The notes below the pieces were generated by a model. That model did not search any database. It was not told the origin of the DNA and worked only from the letters and a program-made list of their open reading frames with translations. A stretch of DNA of 33,445 bases from contig VYEX01000037.1 of assembly GCA_009842675.1 (NCBI GenBank), forward strand, positions 1 to 33,445, written 5' to 3'. Made by a program: the position numbers and the translations under genes. Positions 2,975 to 19,783 of the stretch are shown here, piece after piece; position 1 is the stretch's first letter, and every line of letters begins with the position of its first letter. This DNA comes from Acidimicrobiia bacterium (GTDB taxonomy: Bacteria; Actinomycetota; Acidimicrobiia; Acidimicrobiales; Bin134).

Positions 2975-5209
2975 CTAGCCACCCTCCGCGCCCAAGAACA
3001 CCGCCCGGACCAGGTCGTCCCGCTCGGCCAGTTCCTGGGCTGGTCCCTCAAAGCGAACCCGACCCTTCTCCATGAACACCGCCCGCTCGGCCACGCTCAA
3101 AGCCACGTTGAGCGACTGCTCCACGATGATCATGGTCAGTCCTGTCTCCTTCAGCTGCTCTACCACCTCCAGCAGCTCTTGCACCACCACCGGGGCCAAG
3201 CCCAGCGACAGCTCGTCGATGAGCAGCACCTCGGGCTCGTGCATCAGCCCCATGCCAAAGGCCAACATCTGCTGCTGGCCTCCTGAGAGGTCGCCAGCGG
3301 CCTGGTTGCGCTTCTCCCGCAGCACGCCAAATACGTCGTACACCCGCTCAACCCGCCGATAGATCTCGTCCTTCTCCTCCTTGGTGCTCAACATCGTGGC
3401 CAGGAGGTTCTCCTCCACAGACAGCCCGGGGAACACACCGGCACCGCCCCGCACCTGCACGATTCCCTGTTTGAAGCGCAGCTCGGCATCGGCGTAGGTG
3501 ATGGTGCGCCCGTTAAGCCGGATGGCCCCCCGGTCGGGCACGCCCAGGCCGCTAACGGCCCGCAGCAGGGTGGACTTGCCCGCGCCGTTGGTGCCCAGCA
3601 GGGCCAGCGTCTCGCCCCGGCGAACCTCCAAACCGCAGTCGAACAGCACCTGCACCGGGCCGTAGCTGTAGTCCAGTCCCCGCACCTGGAGCACCGGGAT
3701 GTCGTCGGGATGCTCCGACATGCGGCGCATCTCCTCCTGCTCTTCCACCAGCTCGCTCACTGCCAGCGAGATATCTCGTTTGATGTACCGGGAGCCGTAG
3801 GCCACCAGCAGTCCGCCGATGATCGACGCCGGCGGGGCCACGATGCTGATGGCCAGGCGTTCTCCGTGGGCGTCGCTGATCGACCCGGCGATGATGCTGC
3901 CCATGAAGCCGCCCATCAAGAATATGAACACCGGCAGCAGGGCAAAGGCCTGGGCCCGCATCCGGTAGGGGGCCACTGCGCCGATAGTGGGGGCGGCAGC
4001 CACAAATGAGGCCGAAGTGCAGGCGTTGGCCAGGCTGATGCCGAAGATCATGATGGCGGGCTGGTGGAATCGCATGGCGACAAGCACCAGAACGCCCGAC
4101 ATGATGATGAGGGTGCCCGCGGTCCTCACCATCTTGCTGGGATCCTCACGAAACATCCCGTCGAATTTGAAGCCCGAAATCGGGATGGCAACCAGGCTGG
4201 CCAGCCACACCAGCGACGTCACCCATCCCCGCTGGAACGCCTCGTAGCCGTACTCGTCCTTCAGCATGAGGTTGAGCTGACTGGGCAGCGTCACCAGCGC
4301 AAAGCCGAGGGTGCCAACGCCCACGGCCAAGAAGTAGAAGGTCTTGACCTTCTTGAGCCGGGCGAAAGCAGTGGACATCGATACCGGCAAATCCGAGCCG
4401 ATGGGGGGCATCTCGTACTGCTCGCCCAAGATGGCCTGCTGTTCGTTCCCCGCGCGAGGGGGTTCCTTGAGCAGCAGCGACACCAGCGCGAGGACAATCG
4501 GTGGAATGGCGAAGATATAGAACGCCCACCGCCACCCGTCGTCGCCACCGGCGATCGAGGCGATGGCTCCGGCCAGCACTGGGCCGATGAGCAAGCCGAT
4601 GGGCCGGCCCATGCCCTCGAAAGCGAAAATCCGGGCTCGGGCGGGAATGGGATAGGTGTCGGTGAGCAGCGAGGAGTGAACCGGCAGACGGTTGGCCTGG
4701 CCCGCCCCGGTAAGTACCCGGGTCCAGAAATACTGGAACGGGTTCCTCACCAACCCGGTCAAAAACACGCTCACCGCCCACCCTGCGGTGGCGATGGGCA
4801 CGATTAGAGTGCGCTTCACCCGGTCGGCCAGCCAGGCCAACGGCACTGCTCCCAGCACTAGGGCCACGCCGCCGAATGAGGAGATGCCCAGGATCACGGT
4901 GTCGGACACCCCGAAGGCCTCCTGGAGGTCGGGGAGGAGTACGGCGATCGCCACCCGATCGAATTCGTCGATCACGTTGAGCAGGAACAGCACCACCAGC
5001 ATGCTGGCCCCGCCGGCCCGGATGCCCTGCTTGAGGGTCATGGGCTCCTCGCCCACGCCGGGCAACAAGTCGTCGGGAAGCACTATGACCTCCGACTTGG
5101 CCTCTTGCTCGGCTAGGCGCTTGGACTCCTCCTCGAAGACCGCCGAGGCCAGACTGGCCGGATCATCCAGCTGAGAGTCTTCGACTTCCGGTTCTACCGA
5201 GTCGTCCAT
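2975..5209 (-). CDS. MFS transporter fused to LivF-type ABC ATPase
   Basis: A 744-residue protein (752 if the in-frame GTG at 5233 is used; I prefer ATG 5209, preceded by a GGGGG ribosome-binding site). After an acidic cytoplasmic N-terminus of about 55 residues, residues about 60-490 form a major facilitator superfamily domain with roughly 12 hydrophobic segments and the loop motif WLADRVKR. Residues about 510-740 are an ABC ATPase of LivF type: Walker A GTNGAGKST (about 539), LSGGQQQ (about 641), Walker B LLIDELSLGLAP (about 660). The downstream gene supplies LivH, LivM and LivG, so this supplies the missing LivF. MFS carriers run on ion gradients and normally need no ATPase, so an ATPase attached to one is odd. 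Either the MFS part is a second carrier held at the complex, or ATP use drives or gates it. No frameshift or internal stop marks the join. Confidence 0.9.
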   Translation of the reverse strand: MDDSVEPEVEDSQLDDPASLASAVFEEESKRLAEQEAKSEVIVLPDDLLPGVGEEPMTLKQGIRAGGASMLVVLFLLNVIDEFDRVAIAVLLPDLQEAFGVSDTVILGISSFGGVALVLGAVPLAWLADRVKRTLIVPIATAGWAVSVFLTGLVRNPFQYFWTRVLTGAGQANRLPVHSSLLTDTYPIPARARIFAFEGMGRPIGLLIGPVLAGAIASIAGGDDGWRWAFYIFAIPPIVLALVSLLLKEPPRAGNEQQAILGEQYEMPPIGSDLPVSMSTAFARLKKVKTFYFLAVGVGTLGFALVTLPSQLNLMLKDEYGYEAFQRGWVTSLVWLASLVAIPISGFKFDGMFREDPSKMVRTAGTLIIMSGVLVLVAMRFHQPAIMIFGISLANACTSASFVAAAPTIGAVAPYRMRAQAFALLPVFIFLMGGFMGSIIAGSISDAHGERLAISIVAPPASIIGGLLVAYGSRYIKRDISLAVSELVEEQEEMRRMSEHPDDIPVLQVRGLDYSYGPVQVLFDCGLEVRRGETLALLGTNGAGKSTLLRAVSGLGVPDRGAIRLNGRTITYADAELRFKQGIVQVRGGAGVFPGLSVEENLLATMLSTKEEKDEIYRRVERVYDVFGVLREKRNQAAGDLSGGQQQMLAFGMGLMHEPEVLLIDELSLGLAPVVVQELLEVVEQLKETGLTMIIVEQSLNVALSVAERAVFMEKGRVRFEGPAQELAERDDLVRAVFLGAEGG

Positions 5210-5271
5210 TGATCCCCCATCGGGGCGCGACACTAGGCCATCAGCTAGGCGCAGCGCACGGTATCAGCCGG

Positions 5272-5330: not shown

Positions 5331-7028
5331 GTGTCTCACAAGATGCTCAAGATTCTCGGAGCGCTGCTGGCGCTGGTGCTCATCGCCTCGGCATGCGGGG
5401 GCGATGACGACGATGATGGAGGGGCTCAACCAGCACCTTCCGAGCAGACCGCCGCTCCGGCCCCCGATGAGCCGGATGCGCCTGCCGACACCGGCGACGG
5501 GGACGAGCCCGCCCCGGCCGAAGAAGAGACGACAGCTCCTGCTCCCGACGAACCCGAGGCGCCTGCCGACACCGGCGACGGGGACGAGCCCGCCCCCGAA
5601 GAGCCGGTGGAGATCGGTTTCGACGAGCCCCGGGGAGACATGTTCATCGAGTTCCACCGGACCTTCGACCGGACTCACCCGTTCCAGCCGCTGGACGTGT
5701 TCTGCACGGCCACGCCCGATCCCGACTCGCCGCCGCAGGCTACCGATAGGGGAATCACCGAAGACTCGATAACCATCGTCCATCTCCGCACCAAGCTGGA
5801 GGAGTTGGAGGGCATCGGCTTCGCCATCCCCGTCGGCGACGTCATCAACCAATTCGACACCTTCACCAAGGTGATCAACGAGCAGTGCAACGGCATCTGG
5901 GGCCGCAAGATCGACCTCCAGCTCGTCGAGGTTTCCGCTCTGGGCGGCGGCGGTGAGGACATTGACACCCTCCGCAACCAGGCCTGCATCGAGGCCACTG
6001 AAGACAAGAACGCGGTGATCGTGGTCAACACCTCCGGATTCCAAGGCACCGCCATCTTGTGCATTGCCGAACACGACACCCTGTTCCTCACCACCCAGGG
6101 CAACCCCCGCAACTTCCACGAGCAAGCCAATGGCCTGCTGTATTCGCTCAGCCCGGTGGCCGAAGACTCAGTGGTCAACATGACCAAGGCCATCATCGCC
6201 ACCGGCGCCCTCGAAGGCAAGACCATCGCCGTGGTCTGGCCCGACACCCCCGGCCAACCCGAAACCGTGCAGGCCGGGATCATCGACGTTCTAGAAGACG
6301 CTGGTTACGAGATCGCGGTCGCCGAGCAGATCGGCTGCGGTGGGGCTACCCAATGCACTCTCGGCAACGACATCACGGTAGAGCAGATGATTGAGGAGGG
6401 TGTCGACGTGCTCTTCCCCGCGCTCAACGTGCTGAGCCTGCCCCAGTTCATCAATGAGATGGTCAGCCAGGGATTCGCCCCCGGCGACGTGCAGTTCTAC
6501 AACTCCGACTTCAATAGCCAGGCCGGCGATCTGGTGTCGGGCAAGGTGGCCCAGTTCGGCGGTGACGCTGCTGCCGAGCTCTACAACGGCACCATCATCA
6601 TCGACGATGCCCCCACCGGGAACTTCCGGGTCTCCGATCCGGTGCTCAGCTTCAATGCGCCGCTGAACATCATGTGCAACGAGACCTACGCCAACAACAA
6701 CGACATTGGCGCCGCCAACATCCGGGATGTGTACGGGAGCTACGACAGCGCCTACGGCATGACCAACACGGTGTGTAGCGAGATGCGCATGGTGGCTAGG
6801 GCCCTGTATGACGCCGGTCCCAACCCCACCCGCGAAGACATCTTCAACGCCTTTAGGAATATGGGCTCAGTCGACATCCAGCACCAGCTTCCTGCCACCT
6901 TCGGTCCCGACAAGTTCGGCGCTCCCGATGTGGTGACCGAGCTGGTGTTCAACTTCCCGTGCCCCAACGACCCCGACATTCCCACCTGCATCGAGCAGAC
7001 GGCACCATACCGACGCATCGGGGAGTGA
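5331..7028 (+). CDS. ABC transporter substrate-binding lipoprotein (LivK-like)
   Basis: A 565-residue exported lipoprotein. The N-terminus is a signal peptide ending in a lipobox-like ASAC (Cys22), followed by an acidic D/E-A-P-rich tether up to about residue 95. The rest resembles type I periplasmic binding proteins of the Leu/Ile/Val family: TEDSITIVHL near the start, VVNTSGFQ and the hinge-region KTIAVVWPDTPGQPETVQAG. It should bind substrate outside the membrane and deliver it to the LivHM channel encoded divergently. Start GTG 5331 has AGGGGG five bases upstream. The tether contains an 81-bp internal duplication. The protein is longer than typical LivK (about 370 residues), partly from the tether. 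Confidence 0.88.
   Translation: MSHKMLKILGALLALVLIASACGGDDDDDGGAQPAPSEQTAAPAPDEPDAPADTGDGDEPAPAEEETTAPAPDEPEAPADTGDGDEPAPEEPVEIGFDEPRGDMFIEFHRTFDRTHPFQPLDVFCTATPDPDSPPQATDRGITEDSITIVHLRTKLEELEGIGFAIPVGDVINQFDTFTKVINEQCNGIWGRKIDLQLVEVSALGGGGEDIDTLRNQACIEATEDKNAVIVVNTSGFQGTAILCIAEHDTLFLTTQGNPRNFHEQANGLLYSLSPVAEDSVVNMTKAIIATGALEGKTIAVVWPDTPGQPETVQAGIIDVLEDAGYEIAVAEQIGCGGATQCTLGNDITVEQMIEEGVDVLFPALNVLSLPQFINEMVSQGFAPGDVQFYNSDFNSQAGDLVSGKVAQFGGDAAAELYNGTIIIDDAPTGNFRVSDPVLSFNAPLNIMCNETYANNNDIGAANIRDVYGSYDSAYGMTNTVCSEMRMVARALYDAGPNPTREDIFNAFRNMGSVDIQHQLPATFGPDKFGAPDVVTELVFNFPCPNDPDIPTCIEQTAPYRRIGE
5478..5596 (+). repeat. Tandem duplication in the lipoprotein tether
   Basis: A 38-base sequence at 5478-5515 recurs identically at 5559-5596. 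The 81-base period (27 codons) keeps frame and duplicates the peptide APADTGDGDEPAP. It lengthens the acidic linker between the lipid anchor and the binding domain. Confidence 0.9.
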
Positions 7029-7059: not shown

Positions 7060-8058
7060 GTGAGAGCTCGAGCCCTGCGCAGCGGCGGCCACAACGGGGG
7101 GCTTGCCGCGGCCCTGGGGCTCGCGCTGGCATTGAGCTTGGTCGCGGTCGCCTGCGGGGGTTCTGAAACGCCTGGCACCGAAAGCGCCGAGGTGGCGGAC
7201 GCGCCCACCCCAGGATCCGCCGGCACCGAATCGGCTCAGGATCCGACACCCACCGAGGCCGCGTCCGCCGAGGCGACGCCTACCGCGGCGTCCACGGTGT
7301 CGAGTTCCGACCAAGACAGCGTGGAAACTTCCACCGACTCACCCGAGCCGGAAGAAGCTCCAACGTCGGAGCCGACTGATGCAGGGCCAACCAGCGCTCC
7401 CACTGAATCAGCGTCCACTTCCCAGCCGACTTCTGCTCCTACGCCAGCGTCCACTCCCGCTCCCGCGGCCACTTCGGCTCCTCAACCGACCCCACGAGCG
7501 ACACCCGCCTCCACGCCGGCAGCATCTCGGCCCACCCCAGCACCTACCCCCGAGCCAACGCCGCCGCCCACTCCGCGGCCCACACCAGCGCCAACGCCAG
7601 AACCAACGCCAGAGCCGACCCCCGAGCCAACGCCGGTTCCCCCATCAGACTTGCCTTCGGTGCAGATGGTGAACGTGGCCACCGGCGCCACCGTGAACCT
7701 GGCCAGCTTCGCCCCGTCCGACCGGCCCATCGTTCTGTGGTTCTGGGCGCCCCATTGACCCACCTGCCGCCGGGAAGCCCCCGGCCTCGACCAGTTGGCT
7801 CGAGACAACACCGACAAATTCACACTCATCGGAGTGGGTGCCCGGGACAGCCTAGGACAGGCTGAGGATTTCGTGAACAGAACCGGGGCCACCTTCACCA
7901 TGTTGTGGGATTCATCCAGTGCCTCCTGGAACGGACTGGGAATCACCAGCCAGCACCGAATAATCGTGCTCAACCGGTTCGGCCAGGAGGTCGATCGGCG
8001 GGCCAACCCCTCGGACAGCTGGATCCTGGACAAGGTGGCCGGCATTGGAGAAGCCTGA
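7060..8058 (+). CDS. Putative TlpA-like selenoprotein lipoprotein, UPTC active site (copy 1)
   Basis: Read straight, this frame stops at TGA 7756-7758 after 232 codons, directly after VLWFWAPH. In TlpA/thioredoxin proteins the next residues are CxxC, as in FWAPxCxxCRxEAP. Here the TGA stands at the first Cys and is followed in frame by PTCRREAPGLDQLA, then about 85 more residues of a thioredoxin-fold C-terminus, to TGA at 8056-8058. Read with selenocysteine the protein has 332 residues, with Sec233 and Cys236. The N-terminus is a signal peptide with a weak lipobox (AVAC, Cys32). A long Ser/Thr/Pro-rich tether with PTPEPT repeats follows, and the domain begins near residue 207. It is probably an extracytoplasmic thiol-disulfide oxidoreductase or peroxide reductase; the partner is unknown. 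The usual cis-Pro position holds His299. Standard gene callers would report two fragments (ending 7758 and starting 7795). The selenocysteine biosynthesis genes are not in the window. Confidence 0.82.
7769..7785 (+). promoter_or_regulatory. Candidate bacterial SECIS hairpin, copy 1
   Basis: GCCGGG (7769-7774) pairs perfectly with CCCGGC (7780-7785) around the loop AAGCC. The stem starts 10 bases after TGA 7756-7758 and the loop lies 17-21 bases after it, inside the range known for bacterial selenocysteine insertion elements. If the closing G-C pair opens, the loop begins with G, as many bacterial elements do. SelB binding is inferred. The GC-rich coding sequence makes chance hairpins possible, so its recurrence after the second TGA is the better argument. 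Confidence 0.6.
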
Positions 8059-8059
8059 C

Positions 8060-8653
8060 GTGGGTGCCCTGACGAAGACGAAGGTACTCGCCATGGCTTT
8101 CTGCTTGGCCCTAGGCGCAGCTGCTTGCGGAGACAGCGTCGACAGCCCTGCGACTGCTCCCACCGAGGCACCGGCCCCAGCCGAAGCCCCTGCCACGCAG
8201 GCCCCCGCGCCCGAACCGGCGACAGAGAGCGCCGCCCCAGCTCCAGAATCTGATCTGCCCTCGGTCGAGTTGGTGGACATTGCCACCGGGGCCACCGTGA
8301 ACCTGGCCAGCTTCGCCCCGGCGGAACAACCCCTCGTCCTCTGGTTCTGGGCGCCCCATTGAACCATCTGTCGCCGGGAAGCCCCCGGCGTCGAGCAGTT
8401 CGCTCGAAACAACTCTGACAAACTCACCGTCATCGGTGTAGGAACCCAAGACAGCCTCGGGCTGGCCGAGAGCTTCGTGGAATCCACAGGAACCACCTTC
8501 ACCATGCTCTGGGACCCCACCTTTGAGTCCTGGCGCCAATTGGGGATCTCCGGCCAGCCCGCAGGGATGCTGCTGGACGCCAACGGCACAATCCTCACCT
8601 CTTGGCGCGGCGCCATCCCCCAAAGCCGGGTGCTCGAGGCCGTCGGCGCCTAG
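8060..8653 (+). CDS. Putative TlpA-like selenoprotein lipoprotein, UTIC active site (copy 2)
   Basis: A paralogue of the preceding gene, starting one base after its stop (GTG 8060, with GGAG at 8047-8050; TTG 8045 is an alternative). The frame meets TGA at 8360-8362 after VLWFWAPH and continues with TICRREAPGVEQFA to TAG at 8651-8653. Read with selenocysteine it has 197 residues, with Sec101 and Cys104. The N-terminus is a signal peptide with AAAC (Cys23), then a short Ala/Pro/Glu tether. The domain keeps the cis-Pro loop (GQPAG, Pro167) and the strand MLLDANG, which fit TlpA-like redoxins. ATGATVNLASFAP before the active site is identical in both copies. The same TGA position, a conserved downstream frame and the retained second Cys argue against decay. 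It converges on gcvT with a 7-base gap. Confidence 0.83.
8372..8390 (+). promoter_or_regulatory. Candidate bacterial SECIS hairpin, copy 2
   Basis: CGCCGGG (8372-8378) pairs with CCCGGCG (8384-8390) around the loop AAGCC. This is the copy 1 hairpin with one extra base pair. The loop is again 17-21 bases after the TGA (8360-8362). The sequence from the stem through the loop is unchanged between copies, while codons just before it differ (CCC ACC TGC against ACC ATC TGT). Confidence 0.6.
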
Positions 8654-8660
8654 CGCCCCG

Positions 8661-9722
8661 CTACACGAACGGGAGTTTGACCACGGCGGCGGGCGTGGGG
8701 GTGCCCCGCATATCCACGGCCAGCTCGTCGCCGATTTCGGCGTCGGGGGGCACAAAGGCCAGGGCGATACCCGTCTCCAGCATGGGCGAGAAGTTGCCCG
8801 ACGTGACTTCCCCCACCACCTCGTCGCCCCGCAGCACTGATTGACCCTCTCGGGGCGGGCGACGGCCTTCCACCCGCAGTCCCCGCAATCGCCGGTGGAT
8901 GCCCCGCTCCTGCTCCGCGGCCAGCGCCTCCCGGCCCCGAAACGAAGCCTTGTCCCAGCGCACTACCCAGCCCAGCCCGGCTTGCAGTGGGGAGATGCCC
9001 GGGCCGAGCTCATGGCCGTGCAGGGGCAAGCCCTTCTCCAGGCGAAGCGTGTCCCGGGCTCCCAGTCCGGCGGGAATGATCCCCGCCGCAGTCACCGCAT
9101 CCCAGAGTTGCTCAGCGGCTTCGACAAGAACGGCGATCTCCACCCCGTCCTCGCCGGTGTAGCCGGTGCCGGCCACGGTCAGCGCAGTGCCCTCCCACTG
9201 CACCGTGGCCACGCAGTTGCGGGGCACCTCCGACGCGCTGGGCGACACCTGGGCCAGTCGACTGCGGGCCTCGGGACCCTGCACCGCCAGCACCGCCCGA
9301 CTGGCGGTCACATCAACGGCCTGAAACCTGGTACCGGTTTCAGCGCTGCCCAGGGCATCGGCCACCCGGTCGGTGTTGGAGGCATTGGGCATCACGTCGA
9401 AGCTCTCCGGCGCCACCCACCACACGATGATGTCGTCGAGCACCGAACCGTCGTCGTCCAGGAGATGGGTGTACTGCGTGCGTCCCGGGGCTATTCGAGC
9501 CAGATCATTGGTGAACGCCTGCTGAAGCCGCTCGTAGGCATCGGGACCAGACGCCCTAAGCGTGCCCAGATGGCTCACATCGAACACCACCGCTTCGGTC
9601 CGGCAGGCCCGATGCTCGGCCAGCGTGCCCGACGGATAGGAAAGCGGCATCTCCCAGCCGCCGAATGGAACCAGCTTGGCCCCCAGCGCCCGATGACGGC
9701 CCTCCAACGGGGAGGAACGCAC
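8661..9722 (-). CDS. gcvT: Glycine cleavage system aminomethyltransferase (T protein)
   Basis: A 353-residue T protein. It takes the aminomethyl group from the lipoyl arm of H protein and, with tetrahydrofolate, yields 5,10-methylene-THF and ammonia. Family features are clear: LGAKLVPFGGWEMPLSY at the N-terminus, FDVSHLGTLRASGPDA, the folate-site region YTGEDGVEI, LGARDTLRLEKGLPLHGHEL, and the C-terminal barrel motif GEVTSGNFSPMLETGIALAFV. Start GTG 9722 has GGAAGGG eight bases upstream. The partner gcvH lies 3.3 kb away on the same strand; the P protein is not in the window. The TMxN-type YPSG near residue 29 suggests a normal enzyme rather than the YgfZ paralogue. Confidence 0.93.
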   Translation of the reverse strand: MRSSPLEGRHRALGAKLVPFGGWEMPLSYPSGTLAEHRACRTEAVVFDVSHLGTLRASGPDAYERLQQAFTNDLARIAPGRTQYTHLLDDDGSVLDDIIVWWVAPESFDVMPNASNTDRVADALGSAETGTRFQAVDVTASRAVLAVQGPEARSRLAQVSPSASEVPRNCVATVQWEGTALTVAGTGYTGEDGVEIAVLVEAAEQLWDAVTAAGIIPAGLGARDTLRLEKGLPLHGHELGPGISPLQAGLGWVVRWDKASFRGREALAAEQERGIHRRLRGLRVEGRRPPREGQSVLRGDEVVGEVTSGNFSPMLETGIALAFVPPDAEIGDELAVDMRGTPTPAAVVKLPFV

Positions 9723-17738: not shown

Positions 17739-17810
17739 GGGGCTCCCCCGATCAACCCTGCGGTAGGCACCGATGGGCCTCAATCCCAATTATCCGCATG
17801 GGGCTCCCCC
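17720..17810. repeat. Duplicated ribosome-binding site and start region before the deacylase gene
   Basis: The 19-mer ATCCGCATGGGGCTCCCCC occurs at 17731-17749 and again at 17792-17810, with similarity extending about 11 bases further left (from 17720 and 17781). The 61-base offset duplicates the GGGGGAG site and ATG of the gene. The outer copy opens a 15-codon frame (17799 to 17752, minus) ending before the true ATG. Confidence 0.85.
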
Positions 17811-17822
17811 ACGCAGCCGCAC

Positions 17823-17828
17823 TATGCT
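17823..17828 (+). promoter_or_regulatory. -10 element of tRNA-Pro
   Basis: TATGCT lies ten bases before the mature 5' end of the tRNA. There is no convincing -35. Confidence 0.4.
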
Positions 17829-17838
17829 CTCCCCGTTA

Positions 17839-17916
17839 CGGGCTGTGGCGCAGCTTGGTTAGCGCGTCGGTCTGGGGGACCGAAGGTCCCGGGTTCAAAT
17901 CCCGGCAGCCCGACCA
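17839..17916 (+). tRNA. tRNA-Pro (anticodon GGG)
   Basis: A full cloverleaf: acceptor CGGGCTG/CAGCCCG, D arm GCGC/GCGC, anticodon stem TCGGT/ACCGA with loop CTGGGGG (anticodon GGG, G37 as in proline tRNAs), T arm CCGGG-TTCAAAT-CCCGG, discriminator A at 17913, and an encoded CCA at 17914-17916. It reads CCC and CCU codons. No repeat of its 3' end is seen nearby, so it is not marking an integration site in this window. Confidence 0.96.
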
Positions 17917-17970
17917 GCGATTGAAGCGAATCACCAGTGCAGAGCGATGCCAATTGGCAGCCGCATCCTC

Positions 17971-18183
17971 TCAGAACAGCAGGGCGATGCCGTCGATGGC
18001 GCGCCAGGCGAGGTACACGCCGGCGGCGGTGATGGCTAGCCAGAAGTGCCATGGGACTCTCTGGCGGGCGGTGGAATCCACGTCGGACGCGGTTTCGACC
18101 AAGGTGCCGCAGGTGGGGCACTCCCCCATTTCTGTAACAGAGGAGGGGTTCCAGAACCGCTCACAGGGCTCACACCATGGCAC
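17971..18183 (-). CDS. Small zinc-ribbon membrane protein
   Basis: A 70-residue protein from GTG 18183. It has WCEPCERFWNPSS followed by ECPTCGTLVE, two CxxC pairs forming a zinc ribbon, then a short linker and one membrane helix (PWHFWLAITAAGVYLAWR) at the C-terminus. I recall similar small proteins in actinobacterial genomes (PWCE.C..FWNPNS...CPTCG, then PWHF and a helix) but no assigned function. The longer open frame upstream has no recognisable content. The start rests on where the conserved motif begins and has no strong ribosome-binding site. Confidence 0.7.
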   Translation of the reverse strand: MPWCEPCERFWNPSSVTEMGECPTCGTLVETASDVDSTARQRVPWHFWLAITAAGVYLAWRAIDGIALLF

Positions 18184-18460
18184 CTCATTAGCTTGCCACC
18201 GCCAGAGGCTGAGATCCCTGCCGCTGCCATCCCGAGCTGCCAACAGCGTCTTCTGCGGACGGCCGGGCGTTCGGAAGATGATGGTTTTGCACCGAGCGGT
18301 GGTAGCCTTTGCCTGTTTGGCCGAAGGTTTCGGCCGGTGGGCTGACAGCCGGGCTTCTTCTCTGATCCCGCGCAAGCTGCCCGAATTGCGTTTCGCCTCG
18401 CTGACGATTTCAGGCGCCAACGATCCCCAGAGCGCCCGCCACACGCGGGCAAGGAGCCCC

Positions 18461-19783
18461 ATGTCCCCCACTTTCGCCCAGCTGGGCGTGCCCGAACATG
18501 TCTGCCGCGCGCTGGAGCGCGGTGGCATCCTCAAGCCATTCGAAATCCAAGCCGCAGTCATTGCCGATGCTCTAGAGGGCCGCGACATCTGCGGGCGAGC
18601 GCCCACCGGATCGGGCAAAACCCTCGCTTTCGGTATCCCCCTGGTGGTCAATGTCGACCAAGCCAAGGCCCGCCGGCCCCGAGCGCTGGTCTTGTCCCCG
18701 ACCCGTGAGCTCGCCGACCAGATCGCGTCTGAACTGCGCTCTTTTGCCGGCCAGACCAAGATCGGCGCCGTATACGGCGGCGTGGGCTACGGCGTCCAGC
18801 AAAAGCAGCTCCAGCGGGGGATAGACATCCTGGTGGCCTGCCCCGGTCGGCTGGAAGACCTCATGGCCCAAAATGCGGTGAGCCTTCACGAAGTCGACCA
18901 AGTTGTCATCGACGAGGCCGACCGTATGGCCGACATGGGTTTTCTCCCCGCTGTTCGGCGCATCCTCGATCAAACCGCCACCGACCGCCAGACCGTCATG
19001 TTCTCGGCCACTCTCGACCGCGACGCAGCCAAGATCACCCGGGACTACCAACACCGCCCAGTCACCCACGAAGTTGGCGAAGTAAAACCTGACATAGAGG
19101 CGGCTGATCACCGGTTCTGGTCGGTGGACAAGACCGAGCGGATCGCCGCCTGTGTCGATGTAATTTCGACTACTGGATCGGCCATCGTGTTCTGCCGAAC
19201 CCGCCACGGATCAGACCGGCTGGCCCGCCAGCTAGTCCAAAGAGGAGTAAACGCTTCCGCGATACACGGTGGCCACGCTCAGAACCGGCGCAGGCGCACT
19301 CTCCAAGAGTTCATCGACGGCCGGGTCCAAGCCCTCGTCGCCACCGATGTCGCCGCCCGCGGAATTCACGTGGACAGCGTGGCGTCTGTCATCCACTTCG
19401 ATCCGCCCGAAGACCAAAAGGCGTACCTACACCGCTCGGGGCGCACTGCCCGAGCGGGCCAGAAAGGCCTCGTAGTGTCGCTCGTCCAGTCCAATCAGGT
19501 TGGCGACACAAAACATATGCAGCGCCAACTCGGCCTGAAACAGCCCATCACCAGCCCCGATCTAAGCGACGATCACACAGTGCCACCCCGTCCCCGCAAG
19601 CAATCCGACCAGCAGAGCAAGAGCCGCAACGGACAAGGGCCAAAACGGCAATCCCAAGACGGCCGCAACCGGTCAGGGCCAAAGAACAAGAACCGCAACG
19701 GACAAGGGCCAAAAGGGCAGTCCCAGGGTCGCCCCCATCGGCAGAACCGGAACAAGCCCAGGAGCGGGGCCTCTTCTCGCTAG
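18461..19783 (+). CDS. DEAD-box RNA helicase
   Basis: A 440-residue helicase from ATG 18461, with AAGGAG four bases upstream. Motifs are in order: Q motif with FEIQAAVI, motif I APTGSGKT, Ia PTRELADQ, motif II DEAD (IDEADRM), motif III SAT, motif IV region IVFCRT, motif V ATDVAARGIH, motif VI HRSGRTAR. It should unwind short RNA duplexes or remodel RNPs with ATP. A basic low-complexity tail of about 70 residues (repeats of NRNGQGPK and QSQ) probably adds RNA affinity. The 277 bases between this start and the zinc-ribbon gene hold no other gene I can support and may serve as its leader; cold-shock helicases often have long leaders, but nothing specific is seen here. Confidence 0.94.
   Translation: MSPTFAQLGVPEHVCRALERGGILKPFEIQAAVIADALEGRDICGRAPTGSGKTLAFGIPLVVNVDQAKARRPRALVLSPTRELADQIASELRSFAGQTKIGAVYGGVGYGVQQKQLQRGIDILVACPGRLEDLMAQNAVSLHEVDQVVIDEADRMADMGFLPAVRRILDQTATDRQTVMFSATLDRDAAKITRDYQHRPVTHEVGEVKPDIEAADHRFWSVDKTERIAACVDVISTTGSAIVFCRTRHGSDRLARQLVQRGVNASAIHGGHAQNRRRRTLQEFIDGRVQALVATDVAARGIHVDSVASVIHFDPPEDQKAYLHRSGRTARAGQKGLVVSLVQSNQVGDTKHMQRQLGLKQPITSPDLSDDHTVPPRPRKQSDQQSKSRNGQGPKRQSQDGRNRSGPKNKNRNGQGPKGQSQGRPHRQNRNKPRSGASSR
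19624..19714 (+). repeat. Direct repeats encoding the helicase tail
   Basis: A 22-base sequence at 19624-19645 recurs at 19693-19714 (69-base period, in frame), with a degenerate third copy near 19662. Each encodes the peptide RNGQGPK. Confidence 0.8.

Follow-up and report, generated by a model that had tools for sequence, protein, structure and literature searches.

Two adjacent frames in the genome of an Acidimicrobiia bacterium each contain one single in-frame TGA, located where a CxxC motif of the TlpA type has its first Cys, and the second Cys is retained in both. This raises the question of how the two TGA codons are read and what the encoded proteins would do. The window analyzed, i.e., the whole stretch of DNA considered here, comprises 33,445 nucleotides of contig VYEX01000037.1. 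We regard it as very likely that the TGA of both adjacent paralogues is decoded as selenocysteine (Sec); the products are predicted to be lipid-anchored TlpA-like proteins and would act as a pair of extracytoplasmic thiol-disulfide reductases. The relevant features are as follows.

5331 to 7028, plus strand: upstream neighbor, Peripla_BP_6 substrate-binding protein; conserved neighbor, outside the system
7060 to 8058, plus strand: gene 1, 332 residues including Sec; predicted to be a lipoprotein in which a long linker rich in Pro and Thr is followed by a TlpA-like UxxC domain at the C-terminus
7756 to 7758, plus strand: gene 1 Sec codon, in-frame TGA, residue 233, first active-site position of U-P-T-C
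7769 to 7785, plus strand: first hairpin of gene 1, variable, with a GCCGGG/CCCGGC stem
7786 to 7804, plus strand: SECIS-like hairpin of gene 1; its AGUU loop follows the UGA at a distance of 34 nt, the 6-bp core contains one mismatch, and the isolated hairpin has -6.9 kcal/mol
8056 to 8058, plus strand: gene 1 stop, TGA, with no hairpin according to the rule given below
8060 to 8653, plus strand: gene 2, 197 residues including Sec; predicted to be a lipoprotein combining a short linker rich in Ala and Pro with a TlpA-like UxxC domain that keeps cis-Pro
8360 to 8362, plus strand: gene 2 Sec codon, in-frame TGA, residue 101, first active-site position of U-T-I-C
8373 to 8389, plus strand: first hairpin of gene 2, variable, behind the Sec codon
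8390 to 8408, plus strand: SECIS-like hairpin of gene 2; its loop, AGUUC, follows the UGA at a distance of 34 nt, the core comprises 6 bp, and the isolated hairpin has -8.8 kcal/mol
8661 to 9722, minus strand: downstream convergent neighbor, GcvT-like aminomethyltransferase; conserved neighbor, outside the system

Gene 1 starts with GTG at 7060, reads FWAPH-TGA-PTCRREAP and continues for 99 sense codons behind the TGA until its terminal TGA (8056-8058). After a single intervening base, gene 2 starts with GTG at 8060, reads FWAPH-TGA-TICRREAP and continues for 96 sense codons until a TAG (8651-8653). The original prediction had placed the TGA codons and the genes exactly to the base, and its estimate of about 95 open codons behind each TGA is borne out by these counts. 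Upon read-through, both genes match AhpC-TSA, Redoxin, Thioredoxin_8 and Thioredoxin, all above the Pfam cut-offs. As had also been claimed, UGA is a normal stop elsewhere in the window, since 6 of the 18 Pfam-supported genes end in TGA, gene 1 itself has a terminal TGA, and a changed genetic code was rejected on this ground. Concerning the remainder of the window, a 751-residue frame on the minus strand (2975-5233) joins an MFS_1 domain to a following ABC_tran domain, an unusual transporter fusion, and the adjoining frame (66-2924) combines a permease and an ATPase, both of the branched-chain amino acid type. A tRNA-Pro (GGG; 17839-17916, plus strand) lies just within the start of a listed 661-aa ORF (17798-19783), so the true start of this ORF is probably later.

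The source genome consists of 81 contigs, is 95.5% complete and carries the gene pair on contig C47. A search for selA, selB, selD and tRNA-Sec, suggested along with the original prediction, revealed the presence of all four. The tRNA-Sec scored 67.5 bits with the Rfam model (cut-off 47) and was likewise called tRNA-SeC by ARAGORN, while SelB (268.9 against 242.25), SelA (403.3 against 267.9) and SelD (359.4 against 125) all exceeded their curated cut-offs. On contig C74, where the tRNA-Sec is also located, the reading frames of selA and selB share a strand and overlap. SelD itself contains one in-frame TGA within YSHGAG-TGA-AGK (L022:1501-2445, contig C39 of the source genome G000), which we take to be the known Sec position of this protein, and a hairpin with the loop GGTCA follows 32 nt behind the TGA. 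The SelD of this genome is thus itself a predicted selenoprotein.

Homologues with a conserved UGA, as well as homologues with Cys in its place, had been proposed as a further check, and both kinds were found. A scan of genome contigs for relatives yielded 18 loci (L030-L047); in 12 of them (L030-L041) the pair is complete, and all 12 have TGA at the two sites. These 12 loci are labeled Acidimicrobiia (eight), bacterium (two), Acidimicrobiales (one) and marine group Sva0996 (one); going by the labels of the relatives, the host, originally described as an actinomycete, is better referred to as a member of the Acidimicrobiia. Among the other loci, L042 (one TGA copy) and L043 (beginning behind the site) are fragments from contig edges, the two TGA copies of L044 are separated by 1880 nt, L045 (Ilumatobacter nonamiensis) has one TGA copy and L047 is a short low-complexity match. 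In L046 (Candidatus Poriferisocius aerobius, L046:1-900) the active-site stretch is absent from both copies, perhaps owing to an assembly fault or collapse in a repeat, or to a deletion. The same upstream binding-protein gene and downstream convergent GcvT gene flank the pair in 11 of the 12 loci; L041 starts within gene 1, and in L039 the match to the binding protein extends over no more than 79 residues. Three genomes of the window's genus (G322, G181 and G242) have a single strong match to gene 2, located between the same two neighbors in G322 and adjoining GcvT in G181 and G242. Given these single copies in the same neighborhood, a duplication within the genus is the probable origin of the tandem pair.

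At a broader scale, some match to gene 2 (E 0.001) was present in 392 of the 395 genomes of a class sample, as would be anticipated for a common fold. A strong TGA form, defined as a match of at least 80 bits containing TGA, was found in 57 of the 395, TGA matches below 80 bits being counted among the others. The TGA occupies the first active-site position in 56 of these 57 genomes, with G265 not confirmed by the pattern. SelA is present in 54 of the 57 (all but G188, G379 and G292) against 206 of the 338 others (Fisher p 4.8e-8, uncorrected for kinship; 260 of 276 SelA matches counted, 16 weak ones dropped), and in 2 of the 10 genomes whose best match reaches at least 72 bits with no stop. 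Of the 396 genomes in a phylum sample, 10 had a match at E 1e-20, eight of them with TGA, and G474 and G489, both outside the class, carry the TGA at the active site together with a pairing hairpin at the same offset. A plasmid collection gave 18 matching records, every one below 60% identity, and a protein search with gene 1 returned mostly linker matches.

Regarding the Cys versions, gene 2 had 24 matches in a database of 5.8 billion proteins; among the 13 examined, five are FWAPHCxxC proteins and three end exactly at FWAPH (P0008, P0017 and P0023). P0023, 119 aa long and originating from an 8.8 Mb contig, represents a large-genome relative with the same cut. A motif scan of the fetched loci identified 97 distinct copies, 80 with TGA and 17 with TGC or TGT; it overlooks copies with other letters ahead of the motif, which were seen separately, and the ratio is not a census, as the Cys copies come mainly from 20 stretches picked mostly for their no-stop rows. 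In a tree of 102 domains, built with a quick method and with 44 of 99 inner branches open, several Cys copies are located among Sec ones, and five Sec/Cys changes are needed, of which at least three are forced by starred branches.

The codons behind the TGA also appear to be maintained. In 13 copies each, pS and pN were 0.380 and 0.153 for gene 1, and 0.354 and 0.061 for gene 2, so that the region behind the TGA is under purifying selection. Within the first 18 of these codons, pS drops to 0.075 in gene 1 and 0.127 in gene 2, compared to 0.454 and 0.406 in the remainder, and this suppression of silent changes falls where a SECIS element should be. Gene conversion may add to the low pS near the TGA. 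The paralogues of L039 (2676, 3268) are identical for 157 nt from the TGA onward and those of L044 (3304, 5184) for 78 nt, being different elsewhere, as after gene conversion.

Behind the TGA, the RNA contains a variable hairpin and then a conserved one, TCGAGC-AGUUN-GCUCGA, with its loop 34 nt past the UGA. When TGA triplets were scanned with a hairpin rule (fixed offset, a G as the second loop base and no fewer than 5 of the 6 pairs), only the gene 1 and gene 2 Sec codons were followed by such a hairpin among the 356 triplets of the plus strand, while 2 of 434 on the minus strand passed, with other sequences. In an alignment (A1) of 66 distinct TGA copies, from which the L093 copy was excluded because its hairpin differs, 89.2% of 462 cells are paired, as compared to 17-41% when the register is slid. 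Both-sided changes were found in four of seven pairs (23 cells), and none of 500 shuffles was as high on paired fraction and both-sided counts, although the number of pair types was matched or exceeded in 130 of the 500 shuffles, so that this one covariation measure is not above chance. Locus L108 shows three pairs altered on both sides with pairing preserved. Since the outermost pair is open in 43 of the 66 copies, the core was taken as 6 bp, in agreement with RNAalifold. The 67 distinct TGA copies keep a mean of 6.2 of the 7 pairs, the 17 Cys copies 2.3; the hairpin is thus present in the former and missing from the latter, as should be the case for a bacterial SECIS. Codon choice also differs at this element, with GCT used for Ala in 62 of 65 cases at the hairpin (59 of 491 elsewhere) and CGA for Arg in 46 of 59 (44 of 372 elsewhere).

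The published bSECIS rule demands a stem of 4-16 bp, a G in the first two loop positions, a loop 16-37 nt after the UGA and at most -7.5 kcal/mol (PMC13188914). The covarying hairpin of gene 2 passes this rule (6 bp, loop AGUUC, 34 nt, -8.8 kcal/mol), while that of gene 1 fits in spacing and loop and deviates by one core mismatch or bulge and by its energy (-6.9 against -7.5 kcal/mol); orthologues of gene 1, e.g., in L030, have a complete stem. A covariance model of the hairpin region gave convincing E-values in the source genome at genes 1 and 2 only, both of which are in the model by construction, and the next four matches in that genome (E 0.03-0.6) are unlike selenoprotein genes. The TGA relatives in L093 and L143 lack the AGUU hairpin. 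The former belongs to a tandem of one Cys and one TGA copy in genome G043 (L093:689, L093:1439), and its TGA copy has another SECIS candidate, CCTC-GGTC-GAGG, roughly 26 nt downstream of its UGA. In the mechanism that we propose, the hairpin with the AGUU loop, 34 nt past each UGA, would be the binding site for SelB with Sec-tRNA while the ribosome is at the codon, and the TGA ending gene 1, which lacks the hairpin mark, would remain a stop.

The selenocysteine reading of the original prediction is therefore supported by the Sec machinery, the conserved TGA, the Cys homologues, the selection acting behind the TGA and the covarying hairpin. If the TGA codons were instead true stops, the genes would encode short lipoproteins ending at FWAPH with decayed remnants behind them, and P0008, P0017 and P0023 do end at this point; these entries reflect annotation practice, not biology, and with pN below pS behind the TGA, the same TGA in 12 genomes, a covarying hairpin and complete Sec machinery, such a reading is highly improbable. 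A pseudogene or a sequencing error was also rejected, given the same TGA in 12 genomes and by pN below pS. Finally, a reading of UGA as Trp or Cys through a suppressor tRNA or an altered code, which open frames taken alone would allow, has a negligible probability given the ordinary TGA stops of the window and the fact that the sole match above the tRNA-Sec cut-off is the tRNA-Sec itself, with anticodon TCA.

With respect to the proteins, both genes fit the lipobox pattern (ALALSLVAVAC and AFCLALGAAAC), and a lipobox-like signal is found in 72 of the 80 TGA copies; contig edges or N runs account for four of the eight copies lacking it. The lipid anchoring originally proposed is a prediction from this pattern. 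AlphaFold models, built with Cys in place of Sec, were confident, the mean pLDDT being 95.9 for the domain of gene 1 and 88.5 for gene 2 in full length. In both models a thioredoxin fold carries the CxxC-type motif, here UxxC, at the start of helix 1, and their best PDB fold matches were DsbF, MPT53 and ResA, with Etrx2 also among them. At the cis-Pro place ahead of strand 3, gene 2 keeps Pro (GQP) whereas gene 1 has His (SQH). The residue at this place is other than Pro in 35 of 80 Sec copies (His in 11, Ser in 24) and in 1 of 22 Cys copies, an association that is not independent evidence, as about four state changes on the tree underlie it and a test with independent pairs lacks power. In L039-L041, Pro is present at this place in both genes. 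Judging from its sequence, gene 1 is predicted to be an aberrant member of the TlpA/DsbE-type thioredoxin-fold oxidoreductases which lacks cis-Pro and would work like one.

It appears that the two proteins may act in the following manner. Each would be exported and anchored by its lipobox signal peptide, and the Pro/Thr/Ala-rich linker is predicted to span part of the cell wall. The selenolate would attack a disulfide or another oxidized group of the target, and the retained Cys would resolve this attack via a selenenylsulfide. A membrane protein resembling CcdA/DsbD and encoded in the same genome could then recharge the pair with electrons, most likely via gene 2. One DsbD_TM/CcdA-like protein was found in the genome, on contig C2, while no redox partner was present among the scanned neighbors of the pair. 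VKOR is the usual re-oxidant in actinobacteria. A VKOR search gave no match in the 95.5% complete genome and a match in 3 of 14 control genomes. The presence of the CcdA/DsbD-like protein and the absence of a VKOR match together favor reduction over oxidation. Regarding gene 2, a study of Helicobacter pylori HP0377 describes that a change of cis-Pro left this protein oxidized and inactive in vivo, which its authors attribute to the contact with CcdA (PMC5909903). Considering this result and the fact that Pro is kept only in gene 2, we propose that gene 2, not gene 1, meets the CcdA-like protein. Disulfide or peroxide reduction, as suggested in the original prediction, is a proposed activity, and the same applies to target and direction. 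The direction is the weakest step in this scheme, as the CcdA-like gene lies on another contig (C2), the scanned neighbors offer no partner and DsbF, the closest solved relative, is named as disulfide-forming.

The latter point also leads to the first functional alternative, namely that the pair consists of Sec-containing DsbE/DsbF-like enzymes working oxidatively and forming disulfides in exported proteins. The nearest solved structures, by both sequence and fold, are indeed mycobacterial MPT53 and the disulfide-forming DsbF; set against the missing VKOR match and the CcdA/DsbD-like protein, this alternative is rather unlikely, although an assembly gap or a divergent oxidase could explain the absence of VKOR. 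A second alternative concerns gene 1 only, which, having His at the cis-Pro place, could have ceased to be a general disulfide reductase; its selenolate site would instead bind a metal, or have small peroxide-like molecules as substrates, and would be served by gene 2. The difference between SQH and GQP and the frequency of non-Pro residues in Sec as opposed to Cys copies would agree with this, as would a study of the fold according to which cis-Pro may keep metals from binding to CxxC, with peroxiredoxins having Arg at that place (PMC2757866). However, the small number of cis-Pro changes on the tree does not establish a link to Sec, and L039-L041 keep Pro in both genes, so we consider this alternative doubtful. 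Returning to the reductase pair, a two-step selenium relay can be imagined, in which electrons would pass from the CcdA-like protein to gene 2, with its cis-Pro, and then, Se to Se, to gene 1, whose cis-Pro was replaced by His and whose linker of about 165 Pro/Thr-rich residues would reach far cell-wall targets; across Acidimicrobiia, Sec would then have let the fold lose cis-Pro, a residue among its most conserved. This extension is speculative and, in our view, improbable.

These observations have some practical implications. A clade of exported redox enzymes is masked by annotation, as three database entries stop just ahead of the active site, and the covarying SECIS, with its AGUU loop at 34 nt, could be used to locate and correct such genes. 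Furthermore, the family occurs in nature with Sec and with Cys, as tandem paralogues and with or without cis-Pro, and it thereby provides a testbed for the benefit of selenium outside the membrane and for the relaxation of cis-Pro.

Thioredoxin-fold selenoproteins with UxxC have been published since 2005, including thiol-disulfide isomerase-like proteins from the Sargasso Sea (PMC1088965), Trx-like 1 and Prx-like 3 in the GOS marine metagenomes (PMC2398784) and the rows cd02966 and PF08534 of a selenoprotein catalogue (PMC13188914). Like the pair studied here, they have a thioredoxin fold with Sec first in CxxC and are computational predictions; compared by description only, the accessible parts of these three sources present no tandem or lipoprotein pair and name no Acidimicrobiia, and the neighboring selenoprotein pairs in PMC2398784 belong to other families. 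The part of PMC5029168 that is accessible mentions Actinobacteria and not the TlpA-like UxxC pair family. The novelty originally claimed therefore holds for the pair, since no report of it, nor of the family in Acidimicrobiia, was found in the open-licence literature, and not for TlpA/thioredoxin-like UxxC selenoproteins as such, which the accessible texts of PMC1088965, PMC2398784 and PMC13188914 already include. The NCBIfam models WAxxUGC_long (NF041054), Rcas_1661 (NF041057) and HUIPC thioredoxin-like (NF047660) are thioredoxin-fold selenoproteins by name, and no NCBIfam family reaches its cut-off with gene 1 or gene 2; gene 2 scored 29.0 of 300 with NF041054 and 9.8 of 190 with NF041057, and no match to NF047660 was listed at E 1.

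Among characterized proteins, the nearest solved structures are those of mycobacterial MPT53 (DsbE) and DsbF, with 29-31% identity in the fold matches. Both are exported actinobacterial thioredoxin-fold enzymes with Cys rather than Sec, and they are not known to form a tandem lipoprotein pair. The nearest working analogue is Etrx1/Etrx2-CcdA of Streptococcus pneumoniae, which is not known to contain selenium. Etrx1 and Etrx2 are described as surface lipoproteins fed by CcdA1 and CcdA2 in a two-operon system (PMC3914529); as in our case, two lipid-anchored extracytoplasmic thioredoxin-fold paralogues occur in a cell with CcdA. However, both Etrx proteins keep cis-Pro while gene 1 lacks it, and their two operons with CcdA1 and CcdA2 contrast with the single locus without ccdA described here (PMC3914529). 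What is new here is the conserved tandem pair, the lineage in which it occurs, the loss of cis-Pro and the family as such, which has a SECIS of its own and lacks a curated model.
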